Positions 36,942-37,771 of a DNA stretch of 46,192 nt are shown piece after piece. The first letter of the stretch is position 1. Every line of letters begins with the position of its first letter. The translations under genes and the position numbers were made by a program. Location: assembly GCA_036476315.1 (NCBI GenBank), contig JAZGBI010000016.1, forward strand, positions 1-46,192. Reading direction: 5' to 3'. The stretch is from Candidatus Neomarinimicrobiota bacterium. GTDB taxonomy: Bacteria; Fidelibacterota; Marinisomatia; Marinisomatales; S15-B10. The notes below the pieces were generated by a model, which worked only from the letters and a program-made list of their open reading frames with translations, had not been told where the DNA came from and did not search any database.

Positions 36942-36990
36942 ATGCGTAATGCGTAATCGGTAATTCGTAATGCGAAATTTGTAATGCGTA
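36942..36990. repeat. seven degenerate tandem heptamers between the SRP RNA gene and dnaX
   Basis: Seven consecutive 7-bp units, such as ATGCGTA, ATCGGTA, ATTCGTA and ATTTGTA, run without a break and start 15 bp upstream of the dnaX ATG. Three of the seven are exactly ATGCGTA. The array lies in what should be the dnaX leader. Translated, such arrays give spurious peptides of the ITNFALRI type. Confidence 0.85.
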
Positions 36991-37027
36991 CAATGCTGAC
37001 ACTCTGTGGCCTCTGTGGCAAGAAATG

Positions 37028-37302
37028 TCCGGTCGTGCACCATGGATTGAAATCACCGGCATGAAATCCTTCAAGGCAGCCAGCTCCTCTTCAGCACTCC
37101 ACCGGCACATAGAAAATGTTGCCTGCCGCTGCTCCCTCCCGGGTCTGACGGGGTTCAGCAATATTCTATTGCGATGGACTGAAAATTCAACACCGCTTGA
37201 CTTCAAGAACTTCAGTGGGCAGCCCCGCTCCATGGCATGGGCCCTGCTGTAGCGGATTGCAGGTTACAGGGCACCGCTAGCTCCCCGCCTGGCACGACCG
37301 AA
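37028..37302 (-). ncRNA. ffs: signal recognition particle RNA, bacterial large type
   Basis: RNA scaffold of the signal recognition particle, which with Ffh targets nascent membrane proteins to FtsY. On the minus strand the conserved 5' Alu-like part is readable (GCGGGGAGCTAGCGGTGCCC and GCAATCCGCTACAGCAGGGC), as is the Ffh-binding domain (GTCAGACCCGGGAGGGAGCA followed by GCGG). The ends pair perfectly: CGGTCGTGC at 37300-37292 with GCACGACCG at 37038-37030, which sets the limits to within a few bases. The roughly 275-nt length means the Alu domain is kept. It lies between tRNA-Ala and dnaX on the same strand. Confidence 0.92.
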
Positions 37303-37370
37303 ATCTTTCCCGGAGTACTGGATAACCGGAGTATTGGAGGCTTGTGGCCCAATTCTCCATTCCCCCATCT

Positions 37371-37461
37371 GACGTTTGACGTTGGACGTTCGACGTTTTA
37401 CGAATCACGTATCACACCTCACGTCTCATTTTTCAATTCTCATTTTTCTTTTTTCAATGAG
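37371..37461. repeat. thirteen-unit degenerate 7-bp-period array
   Basis: Thirteen consecutive 7-bp units with drifting sequence: first GACGTT-type units (four in a row), then TACGAAT/CACGTAT/CACGTCT types, then CATTTTT/CAATTCT types. It lies in the 252-bp gap between the tRNA-Ala and SRP RNA genes. The period is strict although the unit changes, and no protein-coding reading is sensible. Confidence 0.85.
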
Positions 37462-37486
37462 TGCTATTCCCTTTCACGCCCCACGT

Positions 37487-37518
37487 CTCCATTTCTCCAA
37501 GTCTCCACTTCTCCTCCA
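37487..37518. repeat. four-unit 8-bp-period array (CTCC-type)
   Basis: Four consecutive octamers beginning CTCC (CTCCATTT, CTCCAAGT, CTCCACTT, CTCCTCCA), 26 bp after the heptamer array and just downstream of tRNA-Ala. Confidence 0.7.
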
Positions 37519-37554
37519 GAGGAGTTCCTACGGAACAATTCTCCATCGAAATCG

Positions 37555-37627
37555 TGGAGCCGAAGGGGATCGAACCCTCGACCTTCGCATTGCGAACGCG
37601 ACGCTCTCCCATCTGAGCTACGGCCCC
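37555..37627 (-). tRNA. tRNA-Ala (anticodon CGC)
   Basis: 73-nt cloverleaf. The acceptor stem is GGGGCCG paired with CGGCTCC, containing the G3:U70 pair that marks alanine tRNAs. The D stem is GCTC/GAGC and the anticodon loop is TTCGCAA with anticodon CGC, reading GCG codons. The T arm is GAGGG-TTCGATC-CCCTT and the discriminator is A73. The 3' CCA is not encoded. It appears to be the first gene of a tRNA-SRP RNA-dnaX transcript. Confidence 0.96.
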
Positions 37628-37632
37628 CATCA

Positions 37633-37709
37633 AGATGAAAGATAAACGACTAAAGACGAATGAACCAGTCATCAGTAACCAATAACCGCTCTCTGATCAC
37701 ACATTACGT
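37633..37709. repeat. degenerate 7-bp-period tract upstream of tRNA-Ala
   Basis: About eleven 7-bp steps, weaker than the arrays downstream of the tRNA but in one phase: AGATGAA and AGATAAA, AGACGAA, GTAACCA and ATAACCG. It lies between the tRNA 5' end and its probable promoter. Confidence 0.5.
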
Positions 37710-37725
37710 CAAAGCGCAGCGGAGA

Positions 37726-37743
37726 TCCCGACGCAGGTCGGGA
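37726..37743. repeat. TCCCGAC/GTCGGGA palindromic element, copy 1
   Basis: Perfect 7-bp stem TCCCGAC/GTCGGGA around the loop GCAG, preceded by GCGGAGA. The same stem with a shorter loop and the same GCGGA lead occurs at 38982-38997, so this is likely one member of a dispersed palindromic repeat family. Confidence 0.55.
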
Positions 37744-37771
37744 AATCACGCCTCACCAATCACGCATCACA
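37744..37771. repeat. four-unit AATCACG-type heptamer array
   Basis: Four consecutive heptamers AATCACG, CCTCACC, AATCACG and CATCACA, directly after palindromic element copy 1 and 10 bp before the promoter -10 at 37781. Similar CACGTAT/CACGTCT units occur in the array at 37371. Confidence 0.65.

Follow-up and report, generated by a model that had tools for sequence, protein, structure and literature searches.

The 7-bp-period tracts beside the SRP RNA and tRNA-Ala genes of a Candidatus Neomarinimicrobiota genome form a local patch within a family of degenerate intergenic arrays of 7-bp units that extends across the genome. These arrays are probably a by-product of slippage or microhomology duplication combined with the copying of intergenic blocks, tolerated as near neutral and without a specific function for the SRP RNA or tRNA-Ala gene. 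They belong to the known heptamer arrays of bacteria, with the closest counterparts in cyanobacteria, Beggiatoaceae, Xanthomonas and Geobacter; the variant features here are in-frame word change, a recurrent word order and embedded palindromes. Bacterial intergenic DNA has an excess of heptamer arrays for which there is no accepted reason. The present genome has a dense set of arrays that allows frame, core, word order and turnover all to be measured, and therefore the explanations by slippage and by binding sites give different, testable predictions.

Heptad tracts at the SRP RNA and tRNA-Ala locus

The window, which is the whole stretch of 46,192 bp that was analysed, is contig C16 of a 2.60-Mb genome in 112 contigs. 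The heptad locus is flanked on one side by dnaX (35296-36927, minus strand), whose nearest relatives are those of Ca. Marinimicrobia/Neomarinimicrobiota MAGs at 56-60% identity, and on the other by an ORF at 38153-38965 on the plus strand. By these relatives of dnaX, the genome is that of an uncultured member of the phylum. As a reading of this DNA from its sequence only had stated, the tracts are located beside structural RNA genes. These are an SRP RNA gene (37033-37297, minus strand; Rfam RF01854, 162 bits) and a tRNA-Ala(CGC) gene (37554-37627, minus strand; ARAGORN and Rfam), both of which are neighbours outside the arrays proper. The gap that separates the SRP RNA gene from the first heptad tract also contains a perfect 9-bp tandem duplication, two copies of CTCTGTGGC at 37002-37019.

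The significance of each tract was measured as identity at lag 7 or 8 against 20,000 shuffles of that tract. The first tract (36942-36990) has seven units with TACGNAT-type words on the minus strand, a TRF period of 7/14/21 and 31 of 42 matches at lag 7, compared to a shuffle mean of 10.9. The main tract (37369-37461, plus strand) has 13 units and 58/84 matches over 37371-37461 (shuffle mean 23.4), and a weaker tract of about 11 units (37628-37709, plus strand) has 41/70 over 37633-37709 (shuffle mean 19.6). No shuffle reached the observed value in any of these three (p < 5e-5), and the weaker tract was picked up independently by a log-odds segmenter with a score of 18.3. The fourth tract (37744-37771, plus strand), with four units of CACGCAT-type words, matches 13/21 at lag 7 (p 0.002), a weak result alone, and scores better with 12/14 at lag 14 (p 5e-5). 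The 7-bp period that had been proposed for these tracts is thus real, with the reservation just given for the fourth. In the main tract the unit drifts in frame from four GACGTTN units (GACGTTT, GACGTTG, GACGTTC and GACGTTT, in this order) to TACGAAT, CACGTAT, CACACCT, CACGTCT, CATTTTT and CAATTCT.

Other short elements are placed among the heptads. An octad tract made of TCTCCAAT and CTCCATTT lies at 37481-37518 on the plus strand (TRF period 8/16); its 8-bp period, also pointed out before, was recovered with 17/24 matches at lag 8 over 37487-37518 (p 5e-5, 20,000 shuffles). It is followed by a dispersed palindromic element, hpB (GGAGTTCCTACGGAACAATTCTCC; 37521-37544, plus strand). The third and fourth tracts are separated by the palindrome TCCCGAC-GCAG-GTCGGGA (37726-37743), with a fold of -8.0 kcal/mol and a z of -3.7 against shuffles. 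The four best lag-7 stretches of 42 bp in the whole window are all inside this 0.85-kb locus (32, 31, 28 and 26 matches), compared to 21 of 42 for the best stretch elsewhere in the window, which agrees with the sequence-only reading that nothing similar occurs there.

Distribution of the arrays in the genome

We scanned 779 kb of the 2.60-Mb genome with the log-odds segmenter, using shuffling in 60-bp blocks as the control. The scan identified 65 lag-7 segments (5.06 kb in total), compared to one after shuffling, a density that is not unbiased since the contigs were partly picked for containing matches. The excess at lag 7, which had been proposed as a check, is therefore present. There were 55 segments at lag 14, 44 at lag 21 and 20 at lag 8, and between 1 and 12 at the remaining lags up to 24; apart from multiples of seven, period 8 is hence the commonest (1-20 segments for lags from 3 to 24 outside these multiples). 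In 445 kb of the genome, 17 lag-7 segments had at least 28 matches of 42, compared to 0-3 for the lags not divisible by seven.

The arrays are mostly intergenic, as ORFs overlap 14% of array bases, compared to 84.5% of all bases, and leave about 86% of array bases outside. In the genome sample we found no bias of orientation or of 5' or 3' placement relative to the flanking genes (12/10/10/8). The earlier claim that the tracts cluster around tRNA and SRP genes stands as far as the flanking genes of the window are concerned; however, the arrays are intergenic throughout the genome, and a specific link to tRNA or SRP genes is at most weak. The proximity to tRNA genes is weakly raised, with 9 of the 65 segments within 300 bp, compared to 3.8% of intergenic bases, and these segments represent only five places, the window included. 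The locus L013:1480-1750, directly next to a tRNA gene, is a nearly pure palindrome and octad array, in which four copies of the palindrome GTTCCGTAGGAAC alternate with octad-like GGAG words.

Words, word order and palindromes

The units fall into words with a short common core and a drifting remainder: CAAGNNN, CCAGTNA, GGCAGTN, CACGNAT/TACGNAT, GACGTTN, TCAATNN and AAAGATA. Word-to-word junctions were exactly 7 bp apart in 26 of 35 cases and 14 bp apart in five more. Word order was counted on strict runs, which replaced the noisy transitions between single-unit tokens. CAAG precedes CCAG by 22:1 (p 6e-6) and CCAG precedes GCAG by 11:1 (p 0.006), where the p-values measure shared order rather than independent events, because the loci are partly paralogous. 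The order GACG to TACG/CACG, as in the window, was not significant alone in the same run-based count (2:2).

Blocks of the main tract have paralogs on four other contigs (C6, C20, C69 and C108), with 82-86% identity over 37371-37427 by BLAST, and the copy on C6 bears a matching GACGTT run that ends in TATCACACCTCAC. One composite block gave 60 BLAST matches in the genome, a score of a kind that repeat alignments inflate, and many loci carry just a part of the composite block, or different words. The loci also share non-heptad linkers (CATCATTTTCTCCATT) and palindromes. A 27-bp palindrome, CCCCGTACGCTGACGCTACGGGACAGG, is situated within CAAG arrays at five to six loci. The genome sample contains 24 distinct occurrences of hpB with at most four mismatches, and BLAST places hpB on many contigs; a second palindrome, hpA, has seven occurrences in the same sample. 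Because word order, linkers and palindromes are shared among loci, their sequences indicate that blocks may have been dispersed between sites.

Within the arrays the similarity of units declines with distance, from 0.649 at lag 7 to 0.584 at lag 14, 0.495 at lag 21 and 0.369 at lag 70, and periods of one, two and three units coexist. The variable positions of the unit are contiguous beyond expectation, with an autocorrelation of +0.068 compared to -0.167 +/- 0.041, a value inflated in this genome by the paralogy of the arrays. The same contiguity, weaker, was observed in other phyla (-0.04 compared to -0.167 +/- 0.059, p 0.017), and nothing of the kind at the control lags 6, 9 and 12. Such contiguous variable phases point to a contiguous core in the unit. 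The total phase heterogeneity was 0.236, only slightly above the value of about 0.21 obtained in a neutral simulation of duplications of one to two units.

Turnover between relatives and occurrence in other genomes

Unit variation was compared by proxy in other genera than that of the window. The tract of the window was sought at the corresponding locus of related genomes and was not found there. In a genome of the same family (G004) the spacer between the SRP RNA and tRNA genes is about 100 bp, compared to 256 bp in the window, and the stretch of that locus that was analysed showed no lag-7 array. Two species of one genus, G018 and G030, with about 87% identity in aligned DNA, offered three orthologous heptad spacers. 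One spacer has about 11 CCAAG-type units in one species and three such units plus three CACG/palindrome blocks in the other; the next has CTTG units in one and CACG units in the other; the last has few units in one and many in the other. In G030, a locus (L250:3430-3620) contains three tandem blocks of CACG heptads with a CCCGAC...GTCGGG palindrome, of which the sister species has one, and by this arrangement the heptads and the palindrome were evidently amplified jointly.

In another genus, G071 and G076 both have a four-unit array at one gene, where three other genomes (G073, G074 and G078) have none; at a second gene each of the two has an array, but these arrays are not alike, and none was seen in G073 or G078. 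At one site shared by G071 and G076, all five differences fall within two of the seven phases (post hoc hypergeometric 6e-4). For an array locus of G011, orthologous flanks were not found in G024. Constancy of the units across relatives had been named as a second check; orthologous spacers in fact differ in unit number, unit type or presence.

The pattern (CAAGNNN)4 occurs in 28 of 245 genomes of the phylum, and the genome of the window has the most, with 125 matches compared to 0 for the reversed control pattern. Lag 7 also leads in dnaX loci sampled from many phyla (660 kb), with 32 segments, compared to 18 at lag 14 and 15 at the best lag not divisible by seven. Among 72,556 plasmids, the heptad word of 36942-36990 matches four only, all cyanobacterial (AP018235.1, NZ_CP064881.1, NZ_CP063787.1 and NZ_CP051207.1), with 84% identity over all 49 bp and at 5-20 places per plasmid, and CAAG arrays had no match in the plasmids.

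Origin of the arrays

We suggest that the arrays would lengthen and shorten when slippage or template switching adds or removes one to three units. Re-annealing would need neighbours to be identical only over a short uninterrupted core of about 4-5 bp, while the remaining two to three positions of the unit could drift with the frame kept. Longer blocks with several words and palindromes may be copied to other intergenic sites through ectopic recombination or template switching, and selection would mainly exclude arrays from genes. We favour slippage or template switching at microhomologies, with later drift, because similarity decays with distance, periods of one to three units coexist, the arrays turn over between species and there is no gene-side bias; if neighbours are recent duplicates, a steady decay with distance is expected. 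The sequence-only reading had offered repeated slippage and duplication as one of two explanations, and the decay, the coexisting periods and the differing orthologous spacers agree with it. Some findings count against slippage: the variable phases are contiguous, as a protein-bound conserved core would also give, the differences at one site shared by G071 and G076 are confined to two phases, and the word of the first tract recurs in a distant group, which simple slippage leaves unexplained. Against the copying of blocks counts the lack of a mobilising enzyme in a search of the genome for Y1 transposases.

The other explanation offered before, selection for spacing through helical phasing or protein binding, would make the arrays multi-site binding platforms, where a core of 4-5 bp would be contacted at each 7-bp step by a protein or chromosome-structuring factor, with 21 bp, or two helical turns, for three units. 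The contiguous core and spacer within units, the G that the common cores CAAG, CCAG, GCAG, CACG and GACG all have at one unit position, the frame kept strictly through word changes and the restriction of differences to spacer phases at the G071/G076 site would all suit such a platform. However, arrays are gained, lost or re-worded among species of one genus, they prefer neither an orientation nor a type of gene, and a core required by slippage would yield an identical pattern. A core may thus reflect the need of slippage for re-annealing and equally the need of a binding protein, and we favour slippage because the phase heterogeneity is only slightly above the neutral simulation. Selection for spacing was therefore not borne out, and we regard binding platforms as unlikely. 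A mobile origin of the composite blocks is about as improbable; in that case each block, with its ordered words and palindromes, would be one copy of a REP/BIME- or MITE-like non-autonomous element moving as a whole. The recurrent word order, the many matches to one block and the linkers and palindromes common to several loci could be explained in this way, but fixed ends or target duplications are not established, many loci hold a partial block or other words, and no Y1/RAYT-family transposase (PF01797) was detected in the 96%-complete genome, while control genomes were positive.

We give far less weight still to the idea that the tract encodes a structured, conserved RNA or regulates the SRP RNA and tRNA-Ala genes. 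The tract adjoins both genes, and some arrays elsewhere are near tRNAs, as described above; nevertheless, Rfam recognised no family at the locus besides SRP RNA and tRNA, array tracts as single-stranded DNA did not fold clearly above shuffles (z -1.7, 0.55 and 1.18), and a search of the corresponding locus in related genomes did not recover the tract. Our preferred explanation remains slippage with block copying. That the ordered composite arrays and their palindromes are an undescribed dispersed chromosomal element shared by several phyla, in which a dedicated process or a bound protein keeps the 7-bp frame and the core while the rest drifts, seems doubtful to us.

Relation to known heptamer repeats

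The 7-bp units occur above chance at many intergenic loci and, by proxy, vary between relatives, as do intergenic heptamer tandem repeats (SSR/STRR). The strict form of a heptamer SSR, a single near-identical word, is not seen, as the units drift in frame through several words. Hence we file the arrays as a degenerate, composite variant of these repeats, heterogeneous forms being accepted in published families (PMC4692102, PMC4476775). In the openly licensed papers searched, we found no earlier account of arrays whose words change in frame, follow a recurrent order and enclose palindromes.

TAACTGA and mixed heptamer direct repeats were reported in Beggiatoaceae, Cyanobacteria and Bacteroidetes (MacGregor 2015, PMC4679880). 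Like ours, they are intergenic, have many copies and frequently stand together with further heptamers; indels between sister strains come in steps of 7 nt, and near-identical heptamer assemblages occur at separate intergenic sites. However, one exact word dominates there, in one genome just upstream of start codons, whereas the arrays here have many degenerate words, a recurrent order and no gene-side preference. The heterogeneous GGGAATC or (GGGANTN)n repeats of Xanthomonas and Nostoc (PMC4692102, where heptamer SSRs are also cited as over-represented in general, with polymerase contact as a proposed cause) resemble ours as degenerate intergenic heptamers with fixed and variable positions whose length and sequence vary between related species. 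They are G-rich, quadruplex-forming and mostly of four units, whereas the words of this genome are not based on G runs; by inspection, not every unit of the window tracts contains a run of at least three G, and we rejected this G-quadruplex type.

Degenerate heptanucleotide repeats of Class I (TDNGATT) and Class II (NNTGAGT) in the P6b stem-loop of Nostoc trnL introns (PMC4476775, PMC3488679) likewise change in copy number, and one unit class replaces another; they are intronic and form a base-paired hairpin, in contrast to our intergenic arrays, whose folding is not clearly above that of shuffles. The four- and five-unit elements of Geobacter metallireducens, GGGACCG and MTYCTGA (PMC2700814), are also dispersed, multicopy, short and partly degenerate, but each family has a single consensus and a small, fixed number of units, whereas the arrays here are longer and composite with changing words. 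REP elements are GTAG/CGTC-tagged palindromes (PMC3733652) and, as short dispersed intergenic palindromes, they resemble hpA and hpB, which differ in being embedded in heptad or octad arrays; the REP tag and RAYT association are not established here. Short dispersed palindromes are present, as in RAYT-mobilised REPs, but we rejected membership among these, since the transposase has no match in the genome.

Heptad arrays yield repetitive false peptides and complicate assembly, which is a warning for annotation. In the window, ORFs of 97 aa (36940-37233, minus strand) and 133 aa (37237-37638, plus strand) overlap the SRP RNA gene, the tRNA gene and heptad tracts, and they are very probably spurious. 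The ITNFALRI-type false peptide noticed before is indeed spelled, as read by eye, by the minus strand of 36942-36990 in one frame. In G076, a very long CCAGTNA array of about 30 units (L242:1749-1974) contains recurrent CCAGTCC steps that are one base short, and it is a candidate for the study of unit-length errors.
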